Source: Sinomonas mesophila (GTDB lineage Bacteria > Actinomycetota > Actinomycetes > Actinomycetales > Micrococcaceae). From it: DNA of 64,000 bases. The notes under the pieces are model-generated. The model saw only the letters and a list, made by a program, of their open reading frames with translations, was not told the DNA's origin and searched no databases. Where the stretch lies: assembly GCF_001999765.1 (NCBI RefSeq), contig NZ_MTIC01000013.1:1-64000 (forward strand). The letters are read 5' to 3'. A program made the position numbers and the translations under genes. Positions 4,509-60,101 of the stretch are shown piece after piece. Position 1 is the stretch's first letter. Every line of letters starts with the position of its first letter.

Positions 4509-4698
4509 ATGCGGGGTCATGTCTCAGGGATCTGGGGTCACGTCCCTAGGATCCGGGGTCACGTCCCTAGGATGCGGGGTCATGTCTACTAGGTTCCGGC
4601 GTCAATGTCCGGTCATAGGCCTCGGATCCTAGGAAGGTGACCCCGCAACGTTGGGAGGTGACCCCGCATGGTTGGGAGGTGACCCCGCATCGGAGGGA
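4509..4698. repeat. 21-bp repeat array A, 4+3 units in opposite orientation
   Basis: Four 21-bp units in the GGGGTCA orientation (4509-4592) are followed, after a gap of about 43 nt, by three in the TGACCCC orientation (4636-4698). The typical right-hand unit is GGTGACCCCGCATGGTTGGG plus one A. The array lies between the convergent mtlD and sugar dehydrogenase genes. Transcribed RNA could fold into a long imperfect stem, so a bidirectional terminator role is possible. The same repeat recurs at 28058, 53991, 58800 and 59912. Confidence 0.9.
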
Positions 4699-4707
4699 GG
4701 GTGCGGA

Positions 4708-5907
4708 TCAGAGGGCGAGGGCTACGGCGAGGATCCTCGAGCGGTCGCCCTCGTTCGTCGCGATCCACAGCTCGCCGCCCGCCCCCGCCGCGCGCGCGGT
4801 GTCGGGCACCACGACGACGTCGCGCAGCCGGCCGTACTCGCGGCGGAAGTGCTCGCTCGCCCCGGCCAGCTGCCCGCCGCCGTCGGGCGCGAACCCGGGG
4901 CCCGGCAGCGGGACGCGCCAGAGCCGCTGCCCGCGCAGGCACACGACGTATGCGACGTCGTGGAGGATCGCGAGTGCGCTCGGCGAGGCGTCCGCCGGGC
5001 TGGGCCACACGTGCGCGGCCGGTACGCTGCCGTTGCTCACGCGGGCGCCGGTCACCTCCGGCCAGCCGTACTGCCGGCCCGGGGAGATCAGGTTGAGCTC
5101 GTCGTCGCGCTCGGGCCCGAACTCGCTCGCCCAGAAGCGCCCGAGCGAATCCCAGGCGAGGCCCTGGACGTTGCGGTGCCCATAGGAGTACGTGCGGTTG
5201 CCGAACGGATTGCCCGGCGCAGGCGAGCCGTCCGGGGCGACGCGCAGGATCTTGCCCCCGAGGCTGTCCCGGTCCTGGGCCGAGGCGCGCCGCGTCGCGT
5301 CCCCCGTGGCGATGTACAGCAGCCCGTCCGGGCCCACCTTGAGCCGCCCGCCGTTGTGGATCGTGGCCTGCGGGATGCCGTCCACGAGGACGCGCTCCCC
5401 GCCGAGCCGCGCGCCGTCCCAGCGCAGCGCGACGACGCGGTTGGAGCGTTCGGCGGAGTAGTAGACGAAGACCGTGCCGTCGGACGCGAAGGAGGGGGCG
5501 AGCTCGATCCCGAGCAGCCCGCCCTCGCTCGTGCCGGTGCGGATCGCGATCCGGTGCACCTCGCGCTGCTCGCCGCCGCCGGCCGGCACCTCGAGGACGC
5601 GGCCCGTTCCGCGCTCGGTCACGAGGGCCGAGCCGCCCGGCAGGAACGCGATCGACCACGGGGTGTCGAGCCCCTCGGCGACGGTCCCGACGACGCGCGG
5701 GAGGCCGGTCGCTCCGGTCGGGGCGCCCGTGGGCCCGCCGTCGGTGGGTGCCGCTCCTGTGGGCGCCGGGCCTACGGTGGCTGAGCCGTCCGGCCGGGGC
5801 GCGGGCGACGGCGTGCACGCGCCGAGCGCGGCGAGGGCGCCGCACGCCGCGAGGGCGAGGGCCGCCCGGCGGCCGGGCTCGGGACGGCCCGCGCGGGGCC
5901 TACCCAT
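4708..5907 (-). CDS. PQQ-dependent sugar dehydrogenase-like lipoprotein (glucose/sorbosone dehydrogenase family)
   Basis: This 399-residue predicted lipoprotein has an N-terminal signal ending in a lipobox (ALGAC) and then a Pro/Thr/Gly-rich linker. The body is a GSDH-type beta-propeller: GLDTPWSIAFLPGG, TGTSEGGLLGIELAPSF, GRLKVGPDGLLYIATGDA and SYGHRNVQGLAWD. Family members oxidise aldose sugars outside the membrane, usually with PQQ; the cofactor here is inferred from family. In-frame starts exist upstream (to 5952), but the signal peptide fits best from the ATG at 5907. It is convergent with mtlD across repeat array A. A 9-bp inverted repeat lies upstream. Confidence 0.8.
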   Translation of the reverse strand: MGRPRAGRPEPGRRAALALAACGALAALGACTPSPAPRPDGSATVGPAPTGAAPTDGGPTGAPTGATGLPRVVGTVAEGLDTPWSIAFLPGGSALVTERGTGRVLEVPAGGGEQREVHRIAIRTGTSEGGLLGIELAPSFASDGTVFVYYSAERSNRVVALRWDGARLGGERVLVDGIPQATIHNGGRLKVGPDGLLYIATGDATRRASAQDRDSLGGKILRVAPDGSPAPGNPFGNRTYSYGHRNVQGLAWDSLGRFWASEFGPERDDELNLISPGRQYGWPEVTGARVSNGSVPAAHVWPSPADASPSALAILHDVAYVVCLRGQRLWRVPLPGPGFAPDGGGQLAGASEHFRREYGRLRDVVVVPDTARAAGAGGELWIATNEGDRSRILAVALAL

Positions 5908-5958
5908 GTCGGACCCGGCCACCGCATGCACCCCCTGCCTGAAGGAAGGCATGAGAAA

Positions 5959-5986
5959 ACCTGCATCGCGCCATTGAGATGCAGGT
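5959..5986. promoter_or_regulatory. Inverted repeat ACCTGCATC-N10-GATGCAGGT upstream of the sugar dehydrogenase
   Basis: A 9-bp perfect inverted repeat with a 10-nt spacer lies about 50 nt upstream of the lipoprotein start and about 115 nt beyond the paaR stop. It could be an operator for the dehydrogenase. A separate GC-rich palindrome at 6046-6063 (GGGCTCCGGCCGGAGCCC) is the better candidate for a terminator after paaR. Confidence 0.4.
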
Positions 5987-6100
5987 CACGCCAAGAAGTC
6001 TAGTGGTCGGTGGGCCGGAAACCAAGGGCGGGCCGGACCAACGGCGGGCTCCGGCCGGAGCCCCCGGCCAGCGGATCGGAGCCCGTAGCCCGTCCTCCGG

Positions 6101-6715
6101 TCAGCTGCGGGTGTGCAGCCCGTCGAAGAGCACGGCCACGACGTCGTCGGCCAGCTTCTCGGCGGAGAGGGAGCCGCCGGGGCGGTACCACTCGACGATC
6201 GAGTTGATCGTGCCGAAGAGCAGGCGGGACGCCGTGCGCGGGTCGATGTCGCTGCGCACCGTCCCCTCCTCGCGGGCCTGCCCGATGAGCTCGGCGACCT
6301 TGCGGTCGAAGCCGCGGCGGCGTTCGAGCGCGGCCCGCTCCGTCTCGGTGTTGCCGCGCAGGCGCAGCAGGAGGGTGACGAAGGGCAGCTTCTCCGTCAG
6401 GACCCGCACGGTCGAGCGGACCACGAACTCGAGCCGCTCCTCGGCCGTGCCCGTCTGGGAGGCCGGAGCCTCCCAGACGGACTCGAGGCCGCCGAGGGCC
6501 TGCTCGAGCGCGAGCGCGAGCAGGTCCTCCTTGGACGGCACGTGGTGGTAGATCGCCGACTTCGAGATGCCCAGGTTCTCCGCGAGGATCCCCATGCTCG
6601 TCGCGTCGTAGCCGTGCCGGTTGAACACCTCGACGGCGATGTTGAGCACGGACTGCTGGTCGTAGCCGGGGCGGCCCCGGCGGCCAGCGGGGGAAGCGGT
6701 CGTGGAACTGGGCAT
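6101..6715 (-). CDS. paaR: TetR-family repressor of phenylacetate catabolism (PaaR-like)
   Basis: This 204-residue TetR regulator has the HTH SMGILAENLGISKSAIYHHVPSKEDLL near residues 40-68. It lies 10 nt downstream of paaK in the same direction. It resembles the TetR-type PaaR of actinobacteria, which represses paa genes until phenylacetyl-CoA is present; that ligand is inferred. Matching operators occur before paaI and before paaA. A TAGGCT box (6728-6723), overlapping the paaK stop, sits 7 nt before the ATG and could give a separate leaderless transcript. Confidence 0.8.
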   Translation of the reverse strand: MPSSTTASPAGRRGRPGYDQQSVLNIAVEVFNRHGYDATSMGILAENLGISKSAIYHHVPSKEDLLALALEQALGGLESVWEAPASQTGTAEERLEFVVRSTVRVLTEKLPFVTLLLRLRGNTETERAALERRRGFDRKVAELIGQAREEGTVRSDIDPRTASRLLFGTINSIVEWYRPGGSLSAEKLADDVVAVLFDGLHTRS

Positions 6716-6725
6716 GGTGTACAGC

Positions 6726-8069: not shown

Positions 8070-8141
8070 GGCTTGCTCACTTCTGGATCGGGCGGGGCAG
8101 GGGCGGGGTGGAGTGGGCGGGAAGGGGCATTGCGGGGGCGC

Positions 8142-8606
8142 TCAGCGCCGGGGGATCGTGCGGGAGCGTCCGCGGAACTCGGCCACGAGCCGGCCGGGCT
8201 CCGCGGGGGTGTGCGGGTGGCCGTCGGGGCAGGCGAAGACCTGGACGTCGTAGATGCCGCTCCGTCCGGCGTGGGCGCGGCGGGCGGCGACGGCGGTGAT
8301 CCGCTCGCCCTCGTGCGCGGGGGCGAGGAAGTTGACGTCGACGCCGGCGGCGACGGTGATGCTCGAGGCCTGGTCCTCGTCGGGGCTGTGCGGGTTGCAC
8401 GCCAGGGCGAAGGCGGAGTCGGCGATCGCGAAGAGCATCCCGCCGTGGGCGATGCCGAAGCCGTTGAGCATCTCGCGCCGCAGCGTCGTCGCCACGGTGG
8501 CGGTGCCCTCGCCGAGGTCGAGGACCCTCAGGCCCATCCACTCGGTTGCGTAGTCGTCCGTCAGGATCGGGTGCGCCAGCGTGTGGGCGGGAGCAGCGTC
8601 GCTCAT
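8142..8606 (-). CDS. paaI: Hotdog-fold phenylacetyl-CoA thioesterase
   Basis: This 154-residue hotdog thioesterase carries the PaaI signature EMLNGFGIAHGGMLFAIADS, whose Asp serves catalysis in the family. It probably releases CoA from dead-end phenylacetyl-CoA derivatives, protecting the CoA pool. The ATG at 8606 was chosen because it follows a GAGAGG ribosome-binding site. Longer frames to 8774 run through the promoter. It heads the paaI-paaK-paaR operon, transcribed from the promoter at 8627-8671. Confidence 0.88.
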   Translation of the reverse strand: MSDAAPAHTLAHPILTDDYATEWMGLRVLDLGEGTATVATTLRREMLNGFGIAHGGMLFAIADSAFALACNPHSPDEDQASSITVAAGVDVNFLAPAHEGERITAVAARRAHAGRSGIYDVQVFACPDGHPHTPAEPGRLVAEFRGRSRTIPRR

Positions 8607-8626
8607 GGGTGGGCCTCTCGCAATTT

Positions 8627-8671
8627 TTACCGAACGTTCATTAGGTAATCTCATCGGGCCGGATGTGTCAA
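8627..8671 (-). promoter_or_regulatory. paaI promoter with PaaR-type operator
   Basis: On the minus strand TTGACA (8671-8666) and TACCTA (8647-8642, spacer 18) form a promoter. A near-palindrome, TTACC...GGTAA around GAACGTTC (8627-8648), covers the -10 and the start region. It shares ACCGNNCGTTCRTT with the site before paaA. From memory, this fits the ACCG-NN-CG-NN-CGGT core described for actinobacterial PaaR. Confidence 0.7.
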
Positions 8672-8760
8672 GGAGCACAGCAGCCCGCCCGTGGCTGAAA
8701 ACACCTCCAGAAGCCGTCGCGGGGCATGGCGGGAGGCAGCCCAGCTGGAAGGATGGACCC

Positions 8761-10884: not shown

Positions 10885-10893
10885 GAGGCCCTC

Positions 10894-12093: not shown

Positions 12094-12112
12094 CGCCGCC
12101 GGGCGGACCGGC

Positions 12113-14057: not shown

Positions 14058-14066
14058 AGCCATAAG

Positions 14067-27278: not shown

Positions 27279-28061
27279 ATGATCGACCTGACCATTGCCG
27301 AGGGCGTCGCCGAGGTCGTCCTCGACGCCCCGGCCAAGCTCAACGCGCTCGATGAGGCGGCGCTCGCCGAGCTCTCGCAGGCGTACGACGACGCCGCTGC
27401 CGCCGCCGAGCGCGGCGACGTGCGGGCGCTGCTCCTGCGCGGCGAGGGCCGGGCCTTCTGCGCGGGGCGCGACATCTCCGGGGTCACCCCCGCGGACGAC
27501 GACGTGCTCGGCTACCTCGGCGGGACCGTCACGCCTCTCCTGCAGAAGATGGCCGCGTTCCCCGCCCCGACCTTCGCCGCCGCCCAGGGGGCCTCGCTCG
27601 GGGTGGGCCTGGGGCTCCTGCTCGCGACCGACGTCGTGTACGTGGCCGAGGACGCCAAGATCGGCTCCCCGTTCGCGAACCTCGGCGCGACCCTCGACTC
27701 GGGCGGGCACTGGTACTTCACCGAGCGGCTCGGCATGCACCGGGCGCTCGACCTCGTGTACACCGCCGAGCTCATGAGCGGGGCGGACGCCGTGCGGGCG
27801 GGGATGTTCAGCCGGTCCTACCCGGCCGAGGAGCTCCTGCCGCGCACGCGCGAGACCGTGGGCCGCGTGGCCTCCGGCGCGACCGGCGCCTTCCGCGCGT
27901 CCAAGGAGCTCGTCGCGCAGATCCGTGACCGCCGGCTCGGGCTGTGGGAGTCGATGGACGCCGAGAACCGGGCCCAGGCGCAGCTGTGCGCCTCGGACGA
28001 CTACGCCGAGGGCTTCAAGGCCTTCCAGGAGAAGCGCCGTCCGGTCTTCGCCGGCCGCTGA
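27279..28061 (+). CDS. paaG: Enoyl-CoA hydratase/isomerase, probable ring-1,2-epoxyphenylacetyl-CoA isomerase
   Basis: This 260-residue crotonase-fold protein has the oxyanion-hole segments GRAFCAGRDISG and AAQGASLGVGLGLLLATD. The catalytic position shows a single acid (GATLDSGG), as in PaaG isomerases, rather than the two glutamates of hydratases. PaaG converts the epoxide to the oxepin form before ring cleavage. It starts 17 nt after paaE. Its stop TGA lies inside a 21-bp repeat unit. A PaaF-type hydratase is a less likely alternative. Confidence 0.8.
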   Translation: MIDLTIAEGVAEVVLDAPAKLNALDEAALAELSQAYDDAAAAAERGDVRALLLRGEGRAFCAGRDISGVTPADDDVLGYLGGTVTPLLQKMAAFPAPTFAAAQGASLGVGLGLLLATDVVYVAEDAKIGSPFANLGATLDSGGHWYFTERLGMHRALDLVYTAELMSGADAVRAGMFSRSYPAEELLPRTRETVGRVASGATGAFRASKELVAQIRDRRLGLWESMDAENRAQAQLCASDDYAEGFKAFQEKRRPVFAGR

Positions 28062-28141
28062 CCCCTCAACGAAGGGGGCTGGCCCCTCAACTGAATCCTC
28101 CGGCGTGAGGGGTCATGTCCGCCCGCCTGAGGGGTCACTGC
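28058..28141. repeat. 21-bp repeat array B, 2+2 units between convergent genes
   Basis: Two units in the TGACCCC orientation (28058-28099) are followed by two in the GGGGTCA orientation (28100-28141). Units read TGACCCCTCAAC... and ...TGAGGGGTCAT, a variant of the core with A in place of C. The stop codon of the paaG-like gene (28059-28061) and that of the opposing membrane protein (28137-28135) both fall inside repeat units. The array could act as a shared terminator. Confidence 0.85.
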
Positions 28142-30904: not shown

Positions 30905-31957
30905 ATGAGCACCGTCGCCGAGGCCGTCGCCGCGCGAGCCGCCGCCAGCGCGGGCCCCGAGCCCCTCACGTTCGCCAAGGCCCTCACCGCCGCCATGGCC
31001 GACTCCCTCCGCGCCGACGATTCCGTCGTCGTCTTCGGCGAGGACATCGGCACCCTCGGGGGCGTCTTCCGGATCACGGACGGGCTGCAGGAGGAGTTCG
31101 GCGAGCAGCGCGTCTTCGACACCCCGCTCGCCGAGTCGGGGATCGTCGGCATGGCGGTCGGCATGGCCATGAACGGCCTGCGCCCCGTGCTCGAGCTGCA
31201 GTTCGACGCGTTCGCGTACCCCGCGTTCCAGCAGATCCTGAGCCACGTCGCCAAGATGCACAACCGCACGCGCGGCAAGGTCCGCCTGCCCATGGTGCTG
31301 CGGGTGCCGTACGCGGGCGGGATCGGCGGCGTCGAGCACCACTGCGACTCCTCCGAGGCCTACTATGCCCACACGCCCGGGCTCAAGGTCTGCACGCCCG
31401 CGACCGTCGCCGACGCCTACCGGATGCTCCGCGAGGCCATCGCGAGCGACGACCCGGTCGTGTTCCTCGAGCCCAAGAAGCTGTACTGGACCAAGGACCT
31501 CGTGGACCTCGAGGCGCTGCGGGCCGAGTTCGACGCCAAGCCCGCGAGCAGCGAGGGGCGCGCCGTCGTCGCCCGCCCCGGCACCGACGCGACGCTCATC
31601 GCCTACGGCCCCACGGTGGGCACCGCGCTCGCGGCCGCCGAGGCCGCCGCGGCGGAGGGCCGCTCGGTCGAGGTCGTCGACGTGCGCTCGATCGTGCCGT
31701 TCGACGACGAGACCGTCACCGCGTCCGTGCGCAAGACCGGCCGCGCCGTCGTCGTCGCCGAGGCGGCGGGCTTCGCGTCCGTGGCGTCGGAGATCGTCGC
31801 TCGGGTCCAGGAGCGCTGCTTCCACTCGCTCGCCGCGCCCGTGCGCCGCGTGACCGGCTTCGACATCCCGTACCCGCCGCCCAAGCTCGAGCACTGGCAC
31901 CTGCCCAGCGTCGACCGCATCCTCGACGCCCTCGACGACCTTCAGTGGGAGGACTGA
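30905..31957 (+). CDS. bkdB: Branched-chain 2-oxoacid dehydrogenase E1 beta
   Basis: This 350-residue subunit completes the E1 heterotetramer. Family segments are VVFGEDIGTLGGVFRIT, RVFDTPLAESGIVGMAVGMA and VPYAGGIGGVEHHCDSSEAYYAH. The ATG at 30905 begins 1 nt after the E1 alpha stop. A longer frame from 30725 overlaps E1 alpha and is not needed. The stop overlaps the E2 start codon by 1 nt (TGATG). Confidence 0.92.
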   Translation: MSTVAEAVAARAAASAGPEPLTFAKALTAAMADSLRADDSVVVFGEDIGTLGGVFRITDGLQEEFGEQRVFDTPLAESGIVGMAVGMAMNGLRPVLELQFDAFAYPAFQQILSHVAKMHNRTRGKVRLPMVLRVPYAGGIGGVEHHCDSSEAYYAHTPGLKVCTPATVADAYRMLREAIASDDPVVFLEPKKLYWTKDLVDLEALRAEFDAKPASSEGRAVVARPGTDATLIAYGPTVGTALAAAEAAAAEGRSVEVVDVRSIVPFDDETVTASVRKTGRAVVVAEAAGFASVASEIVARVQERCFHSLAAPVRRVTGFDIPYPPPKLEHWHLPSVDRILDALDDLQWED

Positions 31958-33495
31958 TGACTGCGTCCAACCAGACTGCGAAGACGGCTGCGACGACTCG
32001 CACCTTCGCCCTGCCCGACCTCGGGGAGGGCCTGACCGAGGCCGAGCTCGTGCGCTGGCTCGTCGCCGTGGGCGACGCCGTCGCCGTGGACCAGCCGATC
32101 GCCGAGGTCGAGACCGCCAAGGCCGTGGTCGAGGTGCCCTCGCCGTACGGCGGGACTGTGGCCCGGCTGCACGGCGAGCCGGGCGAGACCATCGACGTCG
32201 GGGCCCCGCTCATCACGGTCGCCCAGCCCGCCGAGATGGGGGCTCGTGACGCCGAGATGGGGGCTCCGGCCGCCGAGATGGGGGCTCGTGCCGCCGAGAT
32301 GGGGGCCCGTGCCGCCGAGATGGGGGCTGCCTACCGATCCGAGGAACGCGCGGGCTCACGCACACCGGAGGAGTCCAAAGGCTCGGGCAACGTGCTCATC
32401 GGCTACGGCACGCCTGGCGGGGCGAGCGGCAGCCGCACCCGGCGGCGCAGGGGGGCCACGCCGTCGTCCGCGGCTGTGCCTGGGGTACCGTCCGGGCGGC
32501 AGGCGCGCACGACGGCGCCGGGCCGGGCCGTGCGGGTCGTCTCGCCGATCGTCCGTCGGCTCGCCCGGGACCTCGGCGTCTCGCTCGCGGGGGTCACGGG
32601 CACCGGGCCCGACGGGCTCATCATGCGGCGCGACGTCGAGTCTGCCCCCACGTCGAGCGCACAGGCCCCCATTTCGGTGGCACAGACCCCCACTTCGGCG
32701 TCGCAAGCCCCCATTTCGGCGGTCCAGACCCCCATTTCGGCGGCACAGGCCCCCATTTCGGCGGCGGTGGATGCCCGGACGGGGCTGCCCGTTGCGTCCC
32801 GGACCCCGGTCAGGGGCGTCCGGAAGGCGGTCGCCCAGGCCATGGTCCGCTCGCGCACCGAGATCCCCGAGGCCACGGTGTGGGTCGACGCCGACGCGAC
32901 GGCCCTCGTCGGGCTCCGCGCGGACCTCAAGCGCCGCGACCCGCACGGGACGCCGAGCCTGCTCGCGTTCATCGCCCGCTTCGTCCTCGCGGGCCTCGCG
33001 AAGTACCCCGAGCTCAACACGCGCCTCGAGGGGGCGGCCGACGGCGAGGCCCAGGAGATCGTCGCGTTCGACGGCGTGAACCTCGGCTTCGCGGCACAGA
33101 CGGACCGCGGGCTCGTGGTGCCGGCCATCCGCGCCGCCCACTCCCTCAGCGCGCGCGGCCTCGACGCCGAGATCCGGCGCCTCACGGCCCTGGTCCGCGA
33201 GGGAAAGGCCTCGCCGGCGGACCTCACCGGCGGGACGTTCACGCTCAACAACTACGGCGTGTTCGGGGTCGACGGAAGCGCCGCGATCATCAACCACCCC
33301 GAGGCGGCGATCCTCGGCGTCGGGCGCATCGTGGACCGCCCTTGGGCCGTCGACGGCCAGCTCGCGGTGCGCAAGGTCGTGCAGCTGACCCTCACCTTCG
33401 ACCACCGCGTGTGCGACGGCGGGACCGCCGCCGGCTTCCTGCGCTACGTCGCCGACGCGGTCGAGCAGCCGGGCAACGTCCTCGCCGATCTCTAA
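31957..33495 (+). CDS. bkdC: Dihydrolipoamide acyltransferase E2 with repeat-built linkers
   Basis: This 512-residue E2 has a lipoyl domain (residues ~16-88, lipoyl-Lys K55 in VETAKAVVEV) and a peripheral subunit-binding domain (~193-227, SPIVRRLARDLGVSLAGVTG). Its C-terminal catalytic domain carries DHRVCDGG (H483, D487). Both interdomain linkers contain 21-bp DNA repeats in opposite orientations (32229-32333 and 32638-32763), giving AEMGARA heptads in linker 1 and AQAPISA heptads in linker 2. No E3 gene is nearby, so E3 must come from elsewhere. Confidence 0.93.
   Translation: MTASNQTAKTAATTRTFALPDLGEGLTEAELVRWLVAVGDAVAVDQPIAEVETAKAVVEVPSPYGGTVARLHGEPGETIDVGAPLITVAQPAEMGARDAEMGAPAAEMGARAAEMGARAAEMGAAYRSEERAGSRTPEESKGSGNVLIGYGTPGGASGSRTRRRRGATPSSAAVPGVPSGRQARTTAPGRAVRVVSPIVRRLARDLGVSLAGVTGTGPDGLIMRRDVESAPTSSAQAPISVAQTPTSASQAPISAVQTPISAAQAPISAAVDARTGLPVASRTPVRGVRKAVAQAMVRSRTEIPEATVWVDADATALVGLRADLKRRDPHGTPSLLAFIARFVLAGLAKYPELNTRLEGAADGEAQEIVAFDGVNLGFAAQTDRGLVVPAIRAAHSLSARGLDAEIRRLTALVREGKASPADLTGGTFTLNNYGVFGVDGSAAIINHPEAAILGVGRIVDRPWAVDGQLAVRKVVQLTLTFDHRVCDGGTAAGFLRYVADAVEQPGNVLADL
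32229..32333 (+). repeat. 21-bp coding repeat, 5 units, E2 linker 1
   Basis: Five adjacent 21-bp units with consensus CGCCGAGATGGGGGCTCGTG plus one base lie in frame between the lipoyl and subunit-binding domains. Each encodes a heptad (AEMGARD, AEMGAPA, AEMGARA twice, AEMGAAY). Acidic and Met-containing heptads are unusual for E2 linkers, which are normally Ala/Pro rich. Confidence 0.95.
32638..32763 (-). repeat. 21-bp coding repeat, 5 units plus one degenerate unit, inverted, E2 linker 2
   Basis: Five good units (32659-32763) and one degenerate unit (32638-32658) lie between the subunit-binding and catalytic domains. Read on the minus strand they have consensus CGCCGAAATGGGGGCCTGTG plus one base, matching the linker 1 unit at about 18 of 21 positions. 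On the coding strand they give AQAPISV, AQTPTSA, SQAPISA, VQTPISA and AQAPISA. The array is thus an inverted copy of the linker 1 repeat. Confidence 0.93.
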
Positions 33496-44193: not shown

Positions 44194-44199
44194 GGCCGC

Positions 44200-52150: not shown

Positions 52151-53178
52151 TGGTCATGACTGCTCACAAGGCTGAAGCCGCGACCGCCCAGGGCGGCGCA
52201 CCGGAGCTCATCAAGGCGGTTCCGGTCCGCCATCCGGGCCGGTGGGTCGGCGCCGCCGTCATCCTGCTCCTCGTGGCCCTGGGGATCCAGAGCCTCGCCA
52301 CGAACCCCCAGTTCCACTGGGAGACCGTGGCGCTGTACATCCTCGACGTCAACGTGGTCCGCGGCGTGGGCTGGACGCTCCTGCTCACGGTCCTGTCGAT
52401 GGTCCTCGCGATCGTGCTCGCCGTTCTCCTGGCCGTCATGCGGCAGTCGGACAACCCGATCTTCCGCTGGTCCAGCTGGGTCTGGGTGTGGTTCTTCCGC
52501 GGTACCCCGGTCTACACGCAGCTCCTGTTCTGGGGGCTCGTGACGGTCCTGTACCCCACGATGTCCCTGGGCATCCCGTTCGGCCCCGCGCTCGTCACGT
52601 GGGTGCTCGAGGACCCGACGCGCGGCTTCATCCCCGCCGTCCTCGGCCTCGGGCTCAACGAGTCCGCCTACCTCGCGGAGATCTTCCGCGCGGGCCTGAA
52701 GTCCGTGGACAAGGGCCAGGCGGAGGCGGCCGAGGCGCTCGGGATGAGCAGGGGCAAGATCATGTGGCGGATCATCCTGCCGCAGGCCATGCGCGTCATC
52801 GTCCCGCCGACCGGCAACGAGACGATCGGCATGCTCAAGACGACCTCGCTCGTCCTGGCCGTGCCCTTCACCCTCGACCTGACCTTCGTGACGAACTCGC
52901 TCGCGAACCGCACGTACCTGCCCATCCCGCTGCTCATCGTCGCGGCCACGTGGTACCTCGTCATCACGAGCATCCTCATGGTCGGCCAGCACTACATCGA
53001 GAAGCACTACGGCAAGGGAATCGAGAGCGGGGCGCCCCCCGTCAACCCCGCGGCGGCCAAGGCCGCGGCGGCGGGCACGGCTCCGACCGGCACCGCTCCG
53101 ACCGGCGTCGAGCCGGGGGAGGCCATCCCCGGCGGCCCGACCGTGACCGGCAAGGACATTGAGGAGAGCGGACGATGA
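52150..53178 (+). CDS. Amino-acid ABC transporter permease
   Basis: This 342-residue HisM/GlnP-type permease has five or six membrane helices and the EAA loop [36 protein letters not shown] is a family motif. The C-terminal tail is Ala/Pro/Thr-rich and includes a TGTAPTGV repeat. Its ATG overlaps the binding-protein stop (TGATG), and its end overlaps the ATPase start (ATGA). Confidence 0.92.
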
Positions 53179-53987
53179 GCGCCCCAGCACAGCCGAAGCC
53201 CGCCGTCGTGGACGGACGGCGCGACACCAAGGAGCTCGTCCGGATCGAGGGCGTGCACAAGTACTTCGGCGACCACCATGTCCTGCGGGGCATCGACATG
53301 ACCGTCCGGCAGGGCGAGGTCGCGGTCCTCATCGGCCCCTCCGGGTCCGGGAAGTCGACCCTCCTGCGCTGCATCAACCACCTCGAGACGATCAGCGCCG
53401 GACGGATCTTCGTCGACGACGAGCTCATCGGCTACCACGAGCGGGGCGGGAAGCTGCACGAGCTCCACCTCAAGGAGATCGCGCGCCAGCGCCGCAACAT
53501 CGGCATGGTGTTCCAGCGCTTCAACCTCTTCGGCCACAAGACGGCCGTCGAGAACGTCATGGAGGCCCCGGTCCAGGTCAAGGGCCAGGGCAAGGCCGCG
53601 GCGAGGCGCCGCGCGCTCGAGCTCCTCGACCGGGTCGGGCTGTCCGAGCGTGCCTACCACTACCCGGCGCAGCTCTCGGGCGGGCAGCAGCAGCGCGTCG
53701 CGATCGCCCGGGCGCTCGCGATGGACCCCGAGCTCATGCTCTTCGACGAGCCGACCTCGGCCCTCGACCCGGAGCTCGTGGGCGACGTCCTCAACGTCAT
53801 GAAGGACCTCGCACGGTCCGGCATGACCATGGTCGTCGTGACCCACGAGATCGGCTTCGCCCGCGAGGTGGGGGACACCCTGACCTTCATGGACGGCGGC
53901 GTCGTGGTCGAATCGGGCCACCCCCGAGAGGTCATCGCCAACCCCCAGCACGAGCGCACGAAGGGCTTCCTGAGCCGCGTCCTCTAA
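53175..53987 (+). CDS. Amino-acid ABC transporter ATP-binding protein
   Basis: This 270-residue GlnQ/HisP-type ATPase has Walker [10 protein letters not shown], a Q-loop VFQRFNLF, signature LSGGQQQRV, Walker [15 protein letters not shown] and switch His in VVVTHEIGF. It powers the permease encoded just upstream. The start overlaps the permease stop by 4 nt. Repeat array C begins 4 nt after its stop. Confidence 0.95.
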
Positions 53988-53990
53988 AGA

Positions 53991-54099
53991 GGTGACCCCG
54001 CATCCCTGAGAGGTGACCCCGCATCCCGATTATGGATGCGGGGTCACCTTCCTGCGTTGCGGGGTCAGCTTCCTGCGTTGCGGGGTCAGCGTTCGATGC
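53991..54099. repeat. 21-bp repeat array C, 2+3 units with a 16-bp perfect hairpin
   Basis: Two units in the TGACCCC orientation (53991-54032) meet three in the GGGGTCA orientation (54037-54099). At the junction, AGGTGACCCCGCATCC (54011-54026) and GGATGCGGGGTCACCT (54034-54049) form a perfect 16-bp stem with a 7-nt loop. The array lies between the convergent ABC ATPase and menF genes. The menF stop codon (54088-54086) lies inside the last unit. Confidence 0.92.
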
Positions 54100-55537
54100 C
54101 CAGGGCCTCGAGCATCGGGCGGAACTTGGCCCAGGTCTCGGCGAGCTCGGCCTGCGGCTGGGACGCCTCGACGATCCCGCAGCCCGCGTACAGCCGCATC
54201 GTCGTCGGCGTCTCGATGACCCCGCCGCGCAACGCGATGCCCCACTCGCCGTTCCCGGCGCCGTCGAGCCAGCCCACCGGCCCCGCGTACGGACCCCGGT
54301 CGAGCTCCTCGAGCTCCCGGATGAGCGCGCCCGCGACGAGCGTCGGCGTCCCGCACACCGCGGCAGTGGGGTGCAGGGCGTTGACGAGCGCGAGCGAGGT
54401 CGGCACGTGCCCTTCGACGTCGGCGAGCTCGGCCTTGACGTCGGAGGCCAGATGGAAGACGTTCGGCAGCTCGAGGATGAACGGCTCCTCGTGCGAGTTC
54501 ATCGCCTCGGAGAAGGGCTCGAGCGCCACGGTGAGGGACTGGATCGCAATCTCGTGCTCGTGCCGCTGCTTCGCCGAGCCCGCGAGGACCCGCGCGGGGT
54601 ACCCGTCGCCCTGGCCCAGGGCGTCGCGCCGGTCCAGCGTGCCCGCGAGCACGCGCGCCTGCGCCGTGCGCCCCTCGACCTGGATGAGCATCTCCGGCGT
54701 CGCGCCCACGAGCCCGTCCACGCCGTACACCCACGTGTCCCGGTAGGCCGCCGCGAGCCGCCGCAGCACCTCGGCGCGCGGGATCCCGGCGCCGTCCTCG
54801 ACCACGATGTCCCGCGCGAGCACGAGCTTCTCGAGCTCTCCCGCGCGGATGCGCCGGACCCCGGCGGCCACGGCGTCGGTCCAGCGCTGCTGTCCGAGCG
54901 CGCCAGGCAGGAGCGCGGCGTGGCGATGCGCCGCCGGTGCGGGTGCAGACGACGGCGAGCGGGCGCCGTGGTGCGCGGCCGTCGCCGCGGGCGGGTGCGC
55001 GCCGTCGTGCGCTGGGTTCGCAGCCTGCCCGAGCCGCGAGGCGATCCGCCCGACGGCGGCACGAAGCAATGCCTCGCTCGGCACCGTGCCGTCGGTGCTG
55101 AGCTGGGTCGCCCACGCCCGCCCGTCCCGGATGCCGAGCACGAGCTCGGGGACGATGAGCCGCGAGAGGTACCGCGAGGTCTTGGAGAACGCGAAGCTGC
55201 CGAACGCGAGCGGGCCCGTGCCCGGATGGCCGACCGCGTCGTCGACCTCGGCCTCGAGCACGAGGTGCTTCCACCACGCCTCGGCCTCGATGAAGCGCTC
55301 GGGCCCCGTGACGGTGAAGCGGGCCGCCTCGCCGAAGCCCAGGTGTCCCTCGCCGCGCCGCGTCCAGCACTGCACCGTGCCATCCGCTGCACCCCGGGCC
55401 GCGCCCTCTGCCTTCCCCTTTGCCTTCCTCTTTGCCTTCCCCTTTGCCTTCGGCGTTTCGGCGAGGAAGGCGGCCAGGTCCCCGGCGGGGAAGTCATCGC
55501 CCAGGTCGATGCTGAGGGCGCGGAGGGGGTGGCTCAT
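54086..55537 (-). CDS. menF: Isochorismate synthase
   Basis: This 483-residue chorismate-utilising enzyme forms isochorismate for menaquinone. Conserved blocks are [53 protein letters not shown] and [16 protein letters not shown]. An extra Lys/Ala-rich tract, [16 protein letters not shown], near residues 30-45 is encoded by a 12-bp repeat. Its ATG at 55537 lies 9 nt after TAGGCT (55552-55547). It is divergent from menG. Confidence 0.93.
55409..55456 (-). repeat. 12-bp coding repeat in menF
   Basis: Four units of TGCCTTCCCCTT type (55409-55420, 55421-55432, 55433-55444, and a diverged 55445-55456) encode KGKA/KRKA tetrads on the minus strand. The tract adds a positively charged loop near the N-terminus of isochorismate synthase. 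Confidence 0.85.
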
Positions 55538-55546
55538 GATGGATCA

Positions 55547-55563
55547 AGCCTACGCGCTAATCT
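55547..55563. promoter_or_regulatory. Divergent back-to-back -10 boxes for menF and menG
   Basis: TAGGCT (55552-55547, minus) and TAATCT (55558-55563, plus) lie 5 nt apart. They sit 9 nt and 8 nt from the menF and menG start codons, which are only 34 bp apart. Each -35 would fall at the edge of the opposite gene. No clear -35 hexamer is seen. Confidence 0.5.
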
Positions 55564-55571
55564 TTGGCAGA

Positions 55572-56348
55572 ATGGTGCGGGTGAGCAGCGCAGGCAGCAG
55601 GGCATCCCTTGACAAGCGTCCCGACGAAGTCGCAAGCATGTTCGATGAGGTGGCGCCCCGATACGACGTCGTGAACGACCTCCTCTCGCTCGGCCAGACG
55701 CGCCGGTGGCGCAAGGTCGTGGTCGATGCGGTCGACGCTGCCCCGCACCAGCGCGTCCTCGACCTCGCCGCCGGGACGGGCACCTCCGCCGAGCCGTACG
55801 CGGACGCCGGCGTCGACGTCGTCGCGTGCGACTTCTCCCTCGGCATGCTGCGCGTCGGCAAGCGCCGCCGCCCGGACATCGACTTCATCGCCGGCGACGC
55901 GACGAACCTGCCGTTCGCGGACAACTCCTTCGACGCCGTCACCATCAGCTTCGGGCTGCGCAACGTCAACGACCCGCACCGTGCCCTGCAGGAGATGCTC
56001 CGCGTCACCAGGCCGGGCGGGCGGCTCGTCGTCGCAGAGTTCTCCTCCCCGGTCAACCCCCTGTGGCGCACGATCTACCTCGAGTACCTCATGCGCGCCC
56101 TCCCGGGGATTGCCCGCCGCGCCTCGTCCAACCCGGACGCGTACGTGTACCTCGCCGAGTCGATCCGGGCCTGGCCGGACCAGGACAACCTCGCCGCGTG
56201 GCTCGTCGCGGACGGCTGGGAGAAGGTGACGTACCGCAACCTCACGGGCGGGATCGTCGCCGTCCACCGCGCGCACAAGCCCGCTGCCCCGGCGTCGACC
56301 GCTGGCCCGCTCGCCAAGGCCCGCCGGGCCCGCCGCGCCGCGCGCTGA
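55572..56348 (+). CDS. menG: Demethylmenaquinone methyltransferase
   Basis: This 258-residue SAM-dependent methyltransferase (UbiE/MenG family) performs the last methylation to menaquinone. Motifs are [38 protein letters not shown] and [27 protein letters not shown] basic C-terminal tail ([12 protein letters not shown]) follows. Starts at ATG 55572 or GTG 55581 are possible; the former is 8 nt after TAATCT. menJ starts 5 nt after its stop. Confidence 0.94.
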
Positions 56349-56353
56349 GACGC

Positions 56354-57685
56354 ATGGAGGTCCTCGTCATCGGGGCCGGCCCCGCCGGCTCCACCGCTGC
56401 CCACTACCTCGCCCGCTCCGGCGTGCCGGTCACCGTCCTCGAGAAGACGCGCTTCCCGCGCGAGAAGGTCTGCGGCGACGGACTGACCCCGCGCGCCGTG
56501 CGCGAGATCCAGCTCCTCGGCCTCCCGCACGCGGAGGCGGACGGCTGGCGCCGCAACCGGGGCCTGCGCCTCATCGCCGGCGGCCGCACGCTCGAGCTCC
56601 CGTGGCCCGCCCTCGGCGACTTCCCGGACTACGGCCTCATCCGCACGCGCCTCGGCTTCGACGCCGAGCTCGCCGAGCACGCCCGCGCGGCGGGCGCCCG
56701 CATTCTCGAGGGCCACGCCGTCACTGAGGTGATCGACGATGGCGGCCGCGTCGTGGGCGCGCGCGCCCACCTCCTCGACGGGGACGGCAGGCGGACAGGC
56801 CAGACGCGCGAGTTCCGGGCCGACGTCGTGCTCGCGGCCGACGGCAACTCGACCCGCGCCGCCGTCTCGCACGGGCTCGCGAAGCGCGACGACCGCCCGC
56901 TCGGCGTCGCGTACCGCACGTACTTCACGAGCCCCCGCCACGAGGACGACTGGATGGAGGGCTGGCTCGAGCTGCCCGGCCGGGACGGCAAGCCGCTGCC
57001 TGGCTACGGCTGGGTCTTCGGCGTCGGCGACGGCACCTCGAACGTGGGCCTGGGCATCCTCAACTCGTCCGAGGAGTTCGGGAAGCTCGACTACCGGCAG
57101 GTGCTGCGCGACTGGACCGCGGGGATGCCCGAGGAATGGGGCTTCACCGAGGAGAACCAGGTCGGCCCGGTGCGCGGCGCCGCCCTGCCGATGGGCTTCA
57201 ACCGGACCCCGCACGTCGTTCCGGGGATGGCGCTGCTCGGCGACGCCGGCGGCATGGTGAGCCCGTTCAACGGCGAGGGCATCTCGTATGCCATGGAGTC
57301 CGCGCGCTTCGCAGCCCAGTACCTCGTCGACGCCGCATCGGCCCAGCGCGCGGCGGGCCTCGCGCGGCCGTCCGCGCACGACGTCGACCGCCGGCTCGCG
57401 GCGTATGCCGGCCGGGTGCGCGCGGAGTGGGGGAGCCACTTCACGCTCGGGCGGATGTTCGCCGCGCTCATCGGACATCCCGCCGTCATGCGCGCCGCGC
57501 TCGCGACGGGGATGCCCATCCCGCCGCTCATGCGCCTCGTCGTGCGGCTCCTCGCGAATCTCGCCGACCGGCCGGGCACGAGCCTGCCCGACGCCGCGAT
57601 CCGCGTCCTGGAGTCGCTCGTCCCGGCGACCTCCAACACTGACCGCCCCCGCACGCCTGCGCCCACCCGGCGCCCCGAAAGCTAG
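56354..57685 (+). CDS. menJ: Geranylgeranyl-reductase-family flavoprotein, probable menaquinone reductase MenJ
   Basis: This 443-residue FAD enzyme has GAGPAGSTAAHYLARSG for FAD, FPREKVCGDGLTPRAV, and LLGDAGGMVSPFNGEGISYAMESARFA near the C-terminus. The mycobacterial MenJ saturates one isoprene unit of menaquinone. The order menG-menJ-polyprenyl synthase resembles the mycobacterial locus, which supports this role over archaeal-type lipid reduction. It begins 5 nt after menG. Confidence 0.85.
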   Translation: MEVLVIGAGPAGSTAAHYLARSGVPVTVLEKTRFPREKVCGDGLTPRAVREIQLLGLPHAEADGWRRNRGLRLIAGGRTLELPWPALGDFPDYGLIRTRLGFDAELAEHARAAGARILEGHAVTEVIDDGGRVVGARAHLLDGDGRRTGQTREFRADVVLAADGNSTRAAVSHGLAKRDDRPLGVAYRTYFTSPRHEDDWMEGWLELPGRDGKPLPGYGWVFGVGDGTSNVGLGILNSSEEFGKLDYRQVLRDWTAGMPEEWGFTEENQVGPVRGAALPMGFNRTPHVVPGMALLGDAGGMVSPFNGEGISYAMESARFAAQYLVDAASAQRAAGLARPSAHDVDRRLAAYAGRVRAEWGSHFTLGRMFAALIGHPAVMRAALATGMPIPPLMRLVVRLLANLADRPGTSLPDAAIRVLESLVPATSNTDRPRTPAPTRRPES

Positions 57686-57694
57686 GCTTGACCC

Positions 57695-58798
57695 GTGACG
57701 ACTTCTCGAGACCACAGCTGGACGCACGCCGGGCATGGCCGCCCGTCGTCGGCTGAGCCGGCACCGACCACGACGGCGATCGCCGCCGGCCTCCAGCTTC
57801 CCGCGGGCTTCGCCGCGATCGCCGACGACGCCGAGCTGGGCCCGGCGATCACGACCAGCATGGCCCGGGTCGAGAAGCGCCTCCGCGAGGCCATCGCCAA
57901 CTCCGACCCGCTCGCGGACGCGACGAGCCGGCACCTCGTGGAGGCCGGCGGCAAGCGGATCCGCCCGCTCCTGACGATCCTGTGCTCGCACCTTGGCGAC
58001 CCGGAGCGTCCCGAGGTCCTGCAGGCGGCCGCCGTCGTCGAGCTGACGCACCTCGCGACGCTCTACCACGACGACGTCATGGACTCCGCCCCGTACCGCC
58101 GCGGCGCCCCCACGGCGCACGAGGTGTGGGGCAACACGGTCGCCATCCTCACGGGCGACCTCATCTTCGCGCGCGCCTCGATCCTCGTCTCTGAGCTCGG
58201 CGGCCGCGCCTTGTCCATCCAGGCCCGCACGTTCGAGCGCCTGTGCCTCGGGCAGCTGCACGAGACCGTCGGCCCGCGCGATGGCGAGGACCCGGTCGAG
58301 CACTACCTGTCCGTCCTGGCGGACAAGACCGGCTCGCTCATCGCGGCCTCGGGCCAGCTTGGGGCGATCTTCTCGGGCGCGCCGGACGAGTACGAGGACT
58401 TGCTCGTCGAGTACGGCGAGAAGGTCGGCGTCGCGTTCCAGCTCGCCGATGACGTCATCGACGTGACCGGCGGCAAGGCCTCCTCGGGCAAGTCCGCGGG
58501 CACCGACCTGCGCGAGGGTGTGCCCACGCTCCCCGTCCTGCTCGCGCGCCGGGCCGCGCACGACGGCGATGCCTCCGCGGCGGAGGTCGTCGCCCTTGTG
58601 GACGGTGACCTCACGAGCGACGAGGCGCTCGCCCGCGCGGTCGAGGCCCTCTCGGCGCATCCTGCGACGCAGGAGGCGTGGGCCGTGGCCCGCGAGTGGG
58701 CCGATGCCGCGAAGGCCGCGCTCGAGCCGCTGCCCGAGGGGGTTGTGAAGGCCTCGCTTGCGGCGTTCGCCGACGCGGTGGTCGACCGCACCCTCTAG
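57695..58798 (+). CDS. Polyprenyl diphosphate synthase
   Basis: This 367-residue trans-prenyltransferase has the first Asp-rich motif DDVMD (in LYHDDVMDSAPYRRG) and the second DDVID (LADDVIDVTGG). GGKRIRPLL is also present. It probably makes the menaquinone side chain, such as an octa- or nonaprenyl diphosphate. The GTG at 57695 is 6 nt after TAGGCT (57683-57688), 9 nt after the menJ stop. Repeat array D begins 1 nt after its stop. Confidence 0.92.
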   Translation: MTTSRDHSWTHAGHGRPSSAEPAPTTTAIAAGLQLPAGFAAIADDAELGPAITTSMARVEKRLREAIANSDPLADATSRHLVEAGGKRIRPLLTILCSHLGDPERPEVLQAAAVVELTHLATLYHDDVMDSAPYRRGAPTAHEVWGNTVAILTGDLIFARASILVSELGGRALSIQARTFERLCLGQLHETVGPRDGEDPVEHYLSVLADKTGSLIAASGQLGAIFSGAPDEYEDLLVEYGEKVGVAFQLADDVIDVTGGKASSGKSAGTDLREGVPTLPVLLARRAAHDGDASAAEVVALVDGDLTSDEALARAVEALSAHPATQEAWAVAREWADAAKAALEPLPEGVVKASLAAFADAVVDRTL

Positions 58799-58799
58799 T

Positions 58800-58883
58800 C
58801 CCGGGGTCACCTCCCAACGTTGCGGGGTCACCTCCCTGTGTTGCGGGGTCATCTCTCAACGTTGCGGGGTTACGTCCGATCCC
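58800..58883 (+). repeat. 21-bp repeat array D, 4 units in one orientation
   Basis: Four units of TGCGGGGTCACCTCCCAACG type (plus T) lie head to tail at 58800-58883, directly after the polyprenyl synthase stop. The last unit (58863-58883) is degenerate. Unlike arrays A-C there is no inverted half, and the flanking genes run in the same direction. The next array, E, lies on the other side of the following gene in opposite orientation. Confidence 0.9.
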
Positions 58884-58983
58884 ACGTCTTCCTGTGGAGG
58901 GGAATCGGACTCCCGCGCGGTGACGCTTTCGTCGAGCCGGCCCTGTGGATAACGTCGGATGGGCTCCGCCCGTCGGTGCCACC

Positions 58984-59916
58984 ATGTTCGCCATGGACGT
59001 TCTCGCGACTCACGGGGCCATGCTCGACGCACCCTTCACGGCTGCCGCTGCCCGACAACACGGTCTGGACTACTTCGCCCTGCTACGCGAGGACGTCCGG
59101 CACGTAAGCCGGGAGCTCTATGTGCCTGGAGGGGGCCAGTCTGGGCTTGTCGACCGAGTCCGCGCGCATCTGGCTGTAACGCCCGGCGCCTGGGCCTCGC
59201 ATCGGACGGCTGCAGCTTTGCACGGACTGTGGCTTCCCGACGCTGCAGACGATCAGACCCTTCTCCACCTCAGCAAGCCCACTGAGCTGCCGAGGGTCAG
59301 ACGCGCCGGCGTCGTTGGACACCGTGTGAGGATCCGCCCTGAAGAGGTCGTGGAAGTCGAATCCGGGATCCGGGTCAGCAGTCCCGCGAGGACGTGGCTC
59401 GACCTGGGGAATGAGCTCGGCCCGGTGGCGCTCGTGGTCCTCGGCGACCAGCTGATCCGAGTCCCGCGACCCGACTTCGAAGGCCGTGACCGTCCGCATG
59501 CTACCAGGAACTCACTCGCCGCGATGCTCCGGGCACACCCGAAGATGCAGGGCGTGGCCAGATGCCGGGCCGCACTCGCTGACATGCGGGTCGGAGCCGA
59601 CTCTGTGCCGGAAACGCTCTTGCGGCTCTGTCTCCTCGCCTACGGATTCCCTGAACCCGAACTGCAGATCGTGTTGCGGCCCTACGACCCCTTCTCTCCC
59701 AGCGGCGACCTGGGCTACCGCGGCATCAAGGTCGTCCTGCAGTACGACGGCGGCCATCACCAAACAGATGAACGGCGGAAGCGCGATGCCAGGCGGGATG
59801 CCGCCTTCCGTGCAGCCGGATGGGTCGTCATCATCGTCACGGCCGAAGACCGACACGACGATTTTGGCCGCGTCCGGGCTGAGTTGCGTAAGTACCTGGC
59901 CGCACGGGTGTCGTGA
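58984..59916 (+). CDS. AbiEi-like/DUF559-type protein
   Basis: This protein of about 310 residues has an N-terminal winged-helix-like part (FTAAAARQHGLDYFALLR, then HRTAAALHGLWLP) and a C-terminal DUF559/Vsr-like nuclease fold (VVLQYDGGHHQTDERRKRDARRDAAFRAAGWVVI). Such proteins are common orphans in actinobacteria with no proven function. Codon use is less GC-rich than its neighbours. The start is uncertain: ATG 58984, ATG 58993 or GTG 58945. It is flanked by array D and array E, which face each other. Its stop TGA lies inside the first unit of array E. Confidence 0.65.
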   Translation: MFAMDVLATHGAMLDAPFTAAAARQHGLDYFALLREDVRHVSRELYVPGGGQSGLVDRVRAHLAVTPGAWASHRTAAALHGLWLPDAADDQTLLHLSKPTELPRVRRAGVVGHRVRIRPEEVVEVESGIRVSSPARTWLDLGNELGPVALVVLGDQLIRVPRPDFEGRDRPHATRNSLAAMLRAHPKMQGVARCRAALADMRVGADSVPETLLRLCLLAYGFPEPELQIVLRPYDPFSPSGDLGYRGIKVVLQYDGGHHQTDERRKRDARRDAAFRAAGWVVIIVTAEDRHDDFGRVRAELRKYLAARVS

Positions 59917-60101
59917 CCTCGCATCGTTGGGAGGTGACCCCGCATCGTTGGGAGGTGACCCTTGGATCGTTGGGAGGTGACCCCGCATCGTTGGGAGGTG
60001 ACCCCGGATCGTTGGGAGGTGACCCCGGATCGTTGGGAGGTGACCCCGGATCGTTGGGAGGTGACCCCGCATCGTTGGGAGGTGACCCCGGATCGTTGGG
60101 A
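59912..60101 (-). repeat. 21-bp repeat array E, 9 units in tandem
   Basis: Nine units of GGTGACCCCGGATCGTTGGG type (plus A) run from 59912 to 60101. All are 21 bp except the third, which is 22 bp (59954-59975). Units carry either CGCATCG or CGGATCG after the core. The array is the largest in the window and lies between the DUF559 gene and the convergent SMI1/KNR4 gene. A strong hairpin terminator follows at 60115. The frames through the array are open but are not genes. Confidence 0.95.

Follow-up and report, generated by a model that had tools for sequence, protein, structure and literature searches.

The best-described repeats at bacterial gene 3′ ends are palindromes, and their spread is thought to be due to RAYT transposases (PMC2817692 and PMC8049555, in excerpt). 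In the portions of PMC3733652, PMC2817692 and PMC8049555 drawn on here, REP, BIME and REPIN elements are described as high-copy, extragenic and species-specific, lying mainly in convergent or co-directional gaps, frequently as inverted doublets capable of forming hairpins, and they have been linked to termination, to mRNA ends and to the binding of proteins. Multi-unit intergenic arrays are represented by the gyrase sites of Escherichia coli BIME-2 (PMC6379681, in excerpt), and for intrinsic terminators a joint action of clustered hairpins has been reported (PMC8355165, in excerpt).

Here we analyse tandem-repeat arrays in a 64-kb stretch of a Sinomonas genome (Micrococcaceae), hereafter the window; our search of the open-access literature found no description of these Sinomonas repeats. 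Like REP, BIME and REPIN elements, they are high-copy, extragenic and species-specific, and are often arranged as hairpin-capable inverted doublets; however, their unit is a direct tandem repeat rather than a palindrome of 20–40 bp, and its spacing varies between species. They share with BIME-2 the multi-unit intergenic array, although BIME-2 units are palindromic, and with intrinsic terminators and hairpin clusters a structure directly 3′ of stop codons, whereas their tandem-array build and genome-wide family identity set them apart from terminators.

Results

TRF called 21-bp arrays at 4507–4609, 4635–4700, 53988–54027, 54037–54090, 58802–58877 and 59913–60104 of the window, and GCGGGGTCA occurs 18 times against 1.54 expected, a count reached in none of 100 shuffles. 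The five 21-bp arrays of the earlier note are therefore real, although one of them (28058–28141) is weak and was not called at score 40; the note's total of about 29 units agrees with our manual count of ~29 for what we term family I. The repeated core that the note described is also real, but the better-conserved part is GGGGTCA, and the two bases 5′ of this motif vary. The unit, GGGGTCACCTCCCAACGTTGC, which in some cases includes CGTC (GGGGTCACGTCC), one of the two tags (GTAG or CGTC) that accompany the palindrome in REP, BIME and REPIN elements, is a direct repeat without a palindrome; palindromes occur only at the centres of inverted pairs. Units adjoin head to tail, and a test for a CRISPR array found no unique spacers, the sequence between cores being common to different units. 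An Rfam scan of the window at gathering thresholds returned no matches.

The first three arrays of the window are inverted pairs. At 4511–4699, in plus-then-minus order, four plus-strand units of 21 bp (4511–4594) stand directly 3′ of a plus-strand mannitol dehydrogenase-like gene ending at 4490, and three minus-strand units (4637–4699) face a minus-strand GSDH-like gene with its 3′ end at 4708; between them lies a centre, GGCGTCAATGTCCGGTCATAGGCC (4595–4636), related to the centres of other plus-then-minus elements, and the folding z of 4491–4707 is −7.26. The weak pair at 28058–28141, minus then plus with two units on each side, is spaced at 21 bp on one side and 22 bp on the other, and the genes on both sides have their stop codons within its outer units. 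A further minus-then-plus pair of family I (53991–54102) fills the gap that separates an ABC gene from a chorismate-binding gene; its centre has a stem that is long and perfect (GGTGACCCCGCATCC-loop-GGATGCGGGGTCACC), and the folding z of 53985–54088 is −7.77.

The remaining two arrays are inverted around a plus-strand gene (58945–59916) with a weak DUF559 match (20.4 bits, marginally below the cut-off of 20.6). Four plus-strand units (58801–58884) directly follow the stop codon of a polyprenyl synthetase (PPS) gene and also end ~60 bp upstream of the weak-DUF559 gene, whose 3′ end is overlapped by nine minus-strand units (59912–60101). This gene is missing from the 58798–60280 gap in four relatives (G007, G008, G010 and G011), and its orientation is reversed in seven. 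A search for U-tract terminators (a G+C-rich hairpin, then a U-tract) between positions 53000 and 60500 of the window gave 0 sites.

The source genome (G000) contains 232 exact GGGGTCA-N14-GGGGTCA pairs against 0 for the control, and the repeats are neither randomly placed nor confined to the window. Placement was analysed in 1.504 Mb, which holds 63 arrays, 56 of them intergenic. As to placement, the suggestion of a family-wide 3′-end element is borne out: 39 of the 56 sit in convergent gaps, for which gap length predicts 10.2, 13 in co-directional gaps (31.8 expected) and 4 in divergent gaps. Counted by gap, the convergent class is occupied in 23 of 167 cases, the co-directional class in 11 of 530 and the divergent class in 3 of 197. 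A strict 3′-end rule goes too far, with 4 of the 63 arrays in divergent gaps, 7 within called genes, and 8 of the 56 intergenic arrays nearest a 5′ end, including 4 co-directional ones. Family I is thus high-copy, extragenic and on the 3′ side of genes, as are REP, BIME and REPIN elements. Relative to the nearest 3′ end, arrays occur in both orientations, 34 in sense and 14 in antisense, and inverted arrays enclose single genes (weak DUF559, NUDIX, isochorismatase-domain and TetR). Among 43 genomes of other genera, the exact 21-spaced pattern matches 0 to 3 times each, and two 20-kb stretches from such genera, in which the gene caller performed poorly (7 and 6 genes), gave no array with TRF. 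No match was obtained in viral contigs with one 28-base pattern, or in plasmids with one array.

The strongest structural clue is an architecture that the earlier note did not mention, the inverted pair. Forty of the 63 arrays make up 20 such pairs, less than 300 bp apart. When whole gaps of 60–400 bp were folded and compared with shuffles, the convergent gaps with an inverted pair gave a median z of −9.8 (n = 13), hairpin-forming inverted doublets as in REP, BIME and REPIN elements, against a median of −4.2 for convergent gaps without an array (n = 81), −0.74 for co-directional gaps without an array (n = 54, every sixth gap) and 0.05 for divergent gaps (n = 50, every third gap). Folding is weak for arrays present in one orientation only (median z −2.15, n = 5), and the best hairpin in 60-nt windows is weaker in array gaps (median −30.4, n = 18) than in array-free convergent gaps (−39.0, n = 81). 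The arms match each other at 15.22 of 21 positions and the arms of other loci at 15.52 (20 pairs, permutation p 0.97). The long stem thus shows no coupled selection, and compensatory evolution of the arms was rejected for these 20 pairs. The fold of array gaps may be a mere by-product of inverted family units. For the short centres, own and cross pairing were 9.25 and 8.83 of 11 (n = 4 only, p 0.41) and, in a second set, 10.60 and 10.60 of 12 (n = 5 only, p 1.0).

Genus relatives, among them G002, G003, G004 and G007–G014, differ in spacing; array-bearing relatives include Sinomonas atrocyanea and S. notoginsengisoli. In the source genome the main genome-wide spacing of GGGGTCA is 21 bp. G013 mostly uses 22 bp, with 84 exact pairs at this distance and 13 at 21 bp, and G002 mostly uses 19 bp, with 27 pairs at 19, 12 at 21 and 0 at 22. 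Since relatives use other main spacings, the 21-bp period is no constraint, and the idea that it places all cores on one face of the DNA is not supported. At the two orthologous gene ends compared, place and polarity are kept while units differ, a comparison that rests on a few gaps. The 4490–4707 gap carries a plus-then-minus element in all six genomes with the same gene pair, down to one unit per side in G004. The ABC gap carries a minus-then-plus inverted repeat in all eight genomes where it is convergent. The core GGGGTCA occurs at the ABC gap only in G000 and G009, GGGGTCT or GGGGTCC in six relatives, and a single hairpin in G004 and G012; the ABC protein diverges to 84–92% identity among the genomes compared. 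The 120 nt after the ABC stop codon are structured in all 15 genomes (z −2.5 to −10.7; coding windows for comparison, median −0.24, n = 47), although their sequences differ among the 15 and some have no GGGGTCA array. Orthologous gaps with neither array nor structure also occur (G004 gap 28061, z +1.44; G009 gap 43044, z +0.42).

Unit number differs at two loci, the ABC and PPS gaps, between G003 and G014, which are ~98% identical there; such change between close strains is typical of minisatellites (VNTRs). Relatives' arrays have many periods, from 17 to 36, with one 14-bp array seen by eye, and 8 of 89 lie in divergent gaps. Family I spacer sequence is common to unlinked loci, and similarity outside the core is 5.78 of 12 positions within species against 4.94 between species, a result matched by 8 of 1000 label shuffles. 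In G003 and G004 the one-mismatch core scan behind these figures also took in GGGGTGACCTCGGCG (family V) and arrays of GGGGTCT, and thus mixed families there.

A second family, absent from the earlier list, lies inside the E2 dehydrogenase gene. A plus-strand array of family II (CCGARATGGGGG, 21 bp; 32228–32328) stands in frame between the lipoyl and E3-binding domains, and an inverted, minus-strand one (32644–32765) in frame between the E3-binding and catalytic domains. Family V replaces family II in relatives, swapped in place and in frame, so that place and polarity are kept here too. We rejected family I membership for the E2 arrays, as none of the six relatives read has the exact core there in the orientation expected.

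Along the chromosome, 14 of 101 family I loci fall in the terminus-proximal 30% (30.3 expected, p 1.3e-4) in four closed or nearly closed genomes, a count that retains doubtful coding-like matches, takes the first of two contigs only for G013, and sets the origin in G004 by the dnaA match at 3,700,333. Per genome, KS p values are 0.145 (G003), 0.0047 (G002), 0.062 (G004) and 0.058 (G013). The family V loci of G004 show no clear departure from an even spread (5 of 32 loci in the terminal 30%, 9.6 expected; KS p 0.16), and we rejected terminus depletion as a general rule.

The RAYT (Y1) transposase PF01797 was found in 0 of 15 genus genomes and in 5 of 14 control genomes, and spread by RAYTs was rejected on this ground. 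In two IS21 types of G010, a short motif is present at either end in 2–4 copies, 22–33 bp apart. The arrays resemble IS21-family ends in having spaced repeats, but have no istA/istB between them, run to nine units and are unlike the IS21 ends read in sequence. GGGGTCA arrays were absent from 10 loci (8 being relatives' IstB matches, some partial; 1.5-kb flanks), and exact 19-, 21- or 22-spaced pairs from four further G010 IS21 loci, only some of the 31 IstB matches of G010 having been read. No full-length IstB was found in G000. At the 58798–60280 gap, the single filled/empty comparison for a target-site duplication, the edges are strongly diverged.

Discussion

There is about an even chance, in our judgement, that the arrays are REPIN/BIME-like extragenic repeats made of direct tandem units, giving bidirectional stem-loops at gene 3′ ends. 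They would then belong to a genus-specific, dispersed extragenic repeat population, whose usual working unit would be two direct tandem arrays in inverted orientation, separated by a short palindromic centre and lying in a convergent gap. A read-through transcript from either facing gene could fold into a long stem-loop at the array pair, which may terminate or attenuate read-through and/or protect the mRNA end; because transcripts from either gene can fold in this way, a bidirectional 3′-end element appears the likeliest job. Units would be gained and lost via slippage or unequal recombination and homogenised across loci within a species, presumably by recombination or copying between loci, so that units would shift across the whole genome in sequence, and in some species in length too, while the loci compared keep their place and polarity. 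Since relatives keep elements at the compared gene ends, each with its own version of the unit, the arrays look less like a fixed code for protein binding than like structured elements of gene ends that can be renewed.

The uncoupled arms of the pairs, copy number that varies between near-identical strains, the many periods and divergent-gap arrays (8/89) of relatives, and the toleration of in-frame arrays in E2 linkers would all be expected of neutral or selfish minisatellites, dispersed without benefit to the host and found at 3′ ends because these, unlike promoters and coding sequence, tolerate them. We nevertheless hold this explanation to be unlikely, as the compared gene ends keep place and polarity through ABC protein divergence to 84–92% identity, and avoidance of promoters alone does not explain the under-filled co-directional gaps (13 vs 31.8 expected), though promoters also lie there. 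Rather improbable is an array of sites for a nucleoid, topoisomerase or roadblock protein that binds GGGGTCA and whose shifting preference retunes the unit genome-wide: the core stays constant while spacing changes, species-specific units (5.78 vs 4.94 of 12) suggest a trans-acting factor and family I is scarce near the terminus (14/101 vs 30.3 expected), but spacings of 19, 21 or 22 bp undo the same-face argument, unlinked loci share more spacer sequence than a binding site alone needs, and family V in G004 is present near the terminus (5/32 loci, 9.6 expected).

The inverted arrays around single genes, the array-gene-array segment missing from the 58798–60280 gap in four relatives, and the spaced motif copies at the ends of the two G010 IS21 types recall relics of transposon ends (multiple transposase sites of IS21 type, or MITEs) that owed their mobility to a lost or distant transposase. 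Such an origin, which we keep as no more than a rival, the IS21 end repeats in G010 being different from the GGGGTCA arrays, is highly improbable: the 10 loci scanned and the four further G010 IS21 loci are without such arrays, G000 is without full-length IstB, neither a target duplication nor a fixed tip was recognised by eye, Y1 transposase is found in none of the 15 genomes, and the viral-contig (one 28-base pattern) and plasmid (one array) searches gave no match.

It is conceivable, though doubtful, that Sinomonas has a satellite-like system in which arrays at gene ends are targets of one or more trans-acting factors; these would rewrite unit and spacing genome-wide, across unlinked loci, with place and polarity kept even in the E2 gene. 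If true, such a rewriting system would be a bacterial counterpart of the concerted evolution of satellites and their binding proteins, and a non-RAYT route for the spread of extragenic repeats.

More generally, a striking 21-bp period need not imply helical phasing. Sinomonas carries several families of tandem arrays near gene ends, often as inverted pairs and without a detected RAYT-type transposase, and units at the same places differ by species. Such arrays in sibling species therefore make both work at transcript ends and homogenisation across unlinked loci testable in one set of species.

GGGGTCA arrays are concentrated between convergent genes

An earlier note had named five places in the window with 21-bp repeat arrays at gene 3' ends; the sighting was real, with GGGGTCA-core repeats at 21-bp spacing (family I) present at all five, the 28058 site being a weak array with spacing partly 22. 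Three of the five sites are inverted pairs, and the remaining two arrays lie on either side of a single gene that weakly matches DUF559. The whole Sinomonas mesophila genome (G000) holds 232 exact family I pairs, and its backward-read control none. In 1.504 Mb of this genome we found 63 family I arrays comprising 210 units (reversed-sequence control, 2), with a unit-to-unit distance of 21 in 145/147 cases. This sample was partly picked for holding hits (C1:20001-40000, all C2 stretches, C4:100001-120000, C5:62001-82000, 130001-150000 and 160001-180000, and C6:80001-160000), a choice that raises array density and does not bias the type of gap.

By location, 39 arrays were convergent, 13 co-directional and 4 divergent, against 10.2, 31.8 and 14.0 expected from intergenic length; the other 7 lay within called genes, a count that is approximate, as are gene ends, since genes were called with a simple codon-usage script. 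A 3'-end element, the general direction of the earlier reading, is the best-supported interpretation. A second 21-bp family (family II) formed 9 clusters in the same 1.504 Mb, four convergent, three in genes, one divergent and one co-directional.

Few family I loci lie opposite dnaA: the terminal 30% of four closed or nearly closed genomes contains 14 of the 101 loci, where 30.3 were expected; within single genomes the scarcity is weaker (KS p 0.145, 0.0047, 0.062 and 0.058). In S. mesophila, dnaA is carried by contig C3, and contig C1 is probably terminus-proximal, judging from where weak matches to ATPases lie in the closed genomes of relatives. Arrays occupy 0/38 convergent gaps on C1 versus 23/129 elsewhere. 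We also observed three family I arrays in 420 kb of C1 (20001-440000; stretches L064 and L176-L195), compared with 27 in 340 kb of C3. The E2-type unit of relatives (family V) is not clearly depleted in G004 (5/32 loci in the terminal 30%).

Polarity is kept at two gene ends while units change

Comparison with 14 Sinomonas relatives (G001-G014) covered the surroundings of the ABC gene in all 15 genomes. This gene faces a chorismate-binding gene in eight, S. mesophila included (gap 53991-54102), and all eight carry an inverted repeat in the order - then +, with differing units: the core is GGGGTCA in S. mesophila and G009 and GGGGTCT or GGGGTCC in the other six. G004 and G012 have a single hairpin there. 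The 120 nt downstream of the ABC stop are structured in 15/15 genomes (z -2.5 to -10.7), also without GGGGTCA arrays. At gap 4490-4707, the order is + then - in 6/6 genomes keeping the gene pair, with one unit a side in G004.

Across relatives, several kinds of array or hairpin occupy gap 28061, among them a ~14-bp GGTCACCTTCTG-type repeat found in both G013 and G005; G009 and G004 have neither array nor hairpin there. At gap 43044, a family I inverted pair occurs in G002 and is absent from S. mesophila, G009 and G003 (the last judged by its two ends). Thus, the two best-compared gaps hold polarity while units change, and other gaps lose or swap the element.

Two side observations concern this region: downstream of the ABC gene, G008 and G010 carry 22-bp arrays whose core resembles GTGGCCACNTCTC and recalls GGGGTCACCTCCC, and in seven relatives (G001, G002, G006, G007, G008, G010 and G011) the segment from the chorismate-binding to the polyprenyl synthetase gene (53000-59000) has the reverse orientation with respect to the ABC gene.

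Gaps with inverted pairs are strongly structured

In 8/15 pairs ordered + then - and separated by under 260 bp, the gap measures 26-27 bp, and most of these eight, their loci being unrelated, have a related centre, GGYCAATGTCCkGACATTGACC; - then + pairs have a 17-19 bp gap in 4/4. Folding of whole gaps of 60-400 bp gave a median z of -9.8 for inverted pairs (n=13), -4.2 for convergent gaps without arrays (n=81), -2.15 for single-orientation arrays (n=5) and -3.4 for co-directional gaps with arrays (n=7); sampled array-free gaps gave -0.74 when co-directional (n=54) and 0.05 when divergent (n=50). Window gaps 4491-4707 and 53985-54088 scored -7.26 and -7.77. Structured gaps of this kind may act in termination. 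Two results count against a reading in which structure itself is selected: arms of inverted pairs show no matching beyond family identity, and gaps with arrays form a less stable best 60-nt hairpin than convergent gaps that lack them.

Inverted arrays encode both E2 linkers

The E2 gene at 31957-33495 carries an inverted, in-frame pair of family II arrays (unit CCGARATGGGGG) in the two linkers around the E3-binding domain (Pfam: lipoyl 16-87, E3-binding 195-228, catalytic 281-509). Both interdomain linkers are encoded by inverted 21-bp arrays, the S. mesophila unit being CGCCGARATGGGGG. In the six relatives examined, these linkers carry CGCCGARGTCACCCC or decayed versions of it at matching polarity and frame; the exception is G005, whose left linker shows no such units. 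Exact CGCCGARGTCACCCC pairs number 76 in G004, 21 in G003, 18 in G014, 14 in G009 and 2 in G012, with none in S. mesophila or the other nine genomes; CGCCGARATGGGGG has 31 exact pairs in S. mesophila and none across 1.10 Mb of relatives' DNA. Because they have CGCCGAR in common and occupy the same E2 locus, the two units may be one family, retuned.

Units differ between Sinomonas species

A strict three-unit pattern matched 31 stretches, all Sinomonas, in a collection of 84,980 species by its description that may omit records of S. mesophila or of genomes very close to it. At least 12 exact pairs at spacing 21 occur in 9/15 Sinomonas genomes, S. mesophila counted, and none in 6/15; 43 genomes of other genera hold 0 to 3 each. 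Exact pairs at spacings 21/22/19 number 232/5/0 in S. mesophila, 13/84/0 in G013, 12/0/27 in G002, 74/0/7 in G003, 72/0/11 in G014, 51/0/0 in G005, 55/8/0 in G009, 45/1/1 in G012 and 13/2/1 in G004. The proposal that a 21-bp period phases units on the DNA helix is not supported, the commonest spacing being 22 in G013 and 19 in G002.

Non-core positions were alike at 5.78 of 12 within species versus 4.94 between (8/1000 label shuffles as large), figures that for G003 and G004 are mixed with another repeat family. Within-species likeness was clear in S. mesophila, G013 and G005, and weak in G003 and G009; the E2 linkers repeat the species-specificity of units in a second family. A further array family of ~31-32 bp, with TTCGGGTACG / CGTACCCGAA, was seen in convergent and co-directional gaps in stretches of G001, G004, G005, G007, G009, G010 and G013, in array-rich and array-free Sinomonas alike.

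Mobility and relation to known repeats

At gap 58798-60280, which follows the polyprenyl synthetase gene, an array-gene-array segment is present in eight genomes and missing from G007, G008, G010 and G011 (G001, G002 and G006 fall outside this tally). The weak-DUF559 gene (58945-59916) is on the + strand in S. mesophila and the - strand in seven relatives (stretches L136-L149); recombination between the flanking inverted arrays would permit such a flip. A gene also lies between inverted GGGGTCATGTCCC arrays at seemingly the same place in G005 (C6, L070) and G009 (C17, L071), the G005 copy being a TetR regulator (Pfam).

No transposase tied to the arrays was found: Y1 transposases are absent from 15/15 Sinomonas genomes, the IS21 loci examined have end repeats of other kinds or none seen, and one search each of viral contigs and plasmids gave no array match. 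G010 C1 (L156-L159) contains two multi-copy IS21-type elements, each end with 2-4 short-motif copies 22-33 bp apart.

On this analysis, we file the Sinomonas arrays as a putative new variant of bacterial extragenic repeats, which would act like REPIN/BIME elements but fail two of their defining tests.
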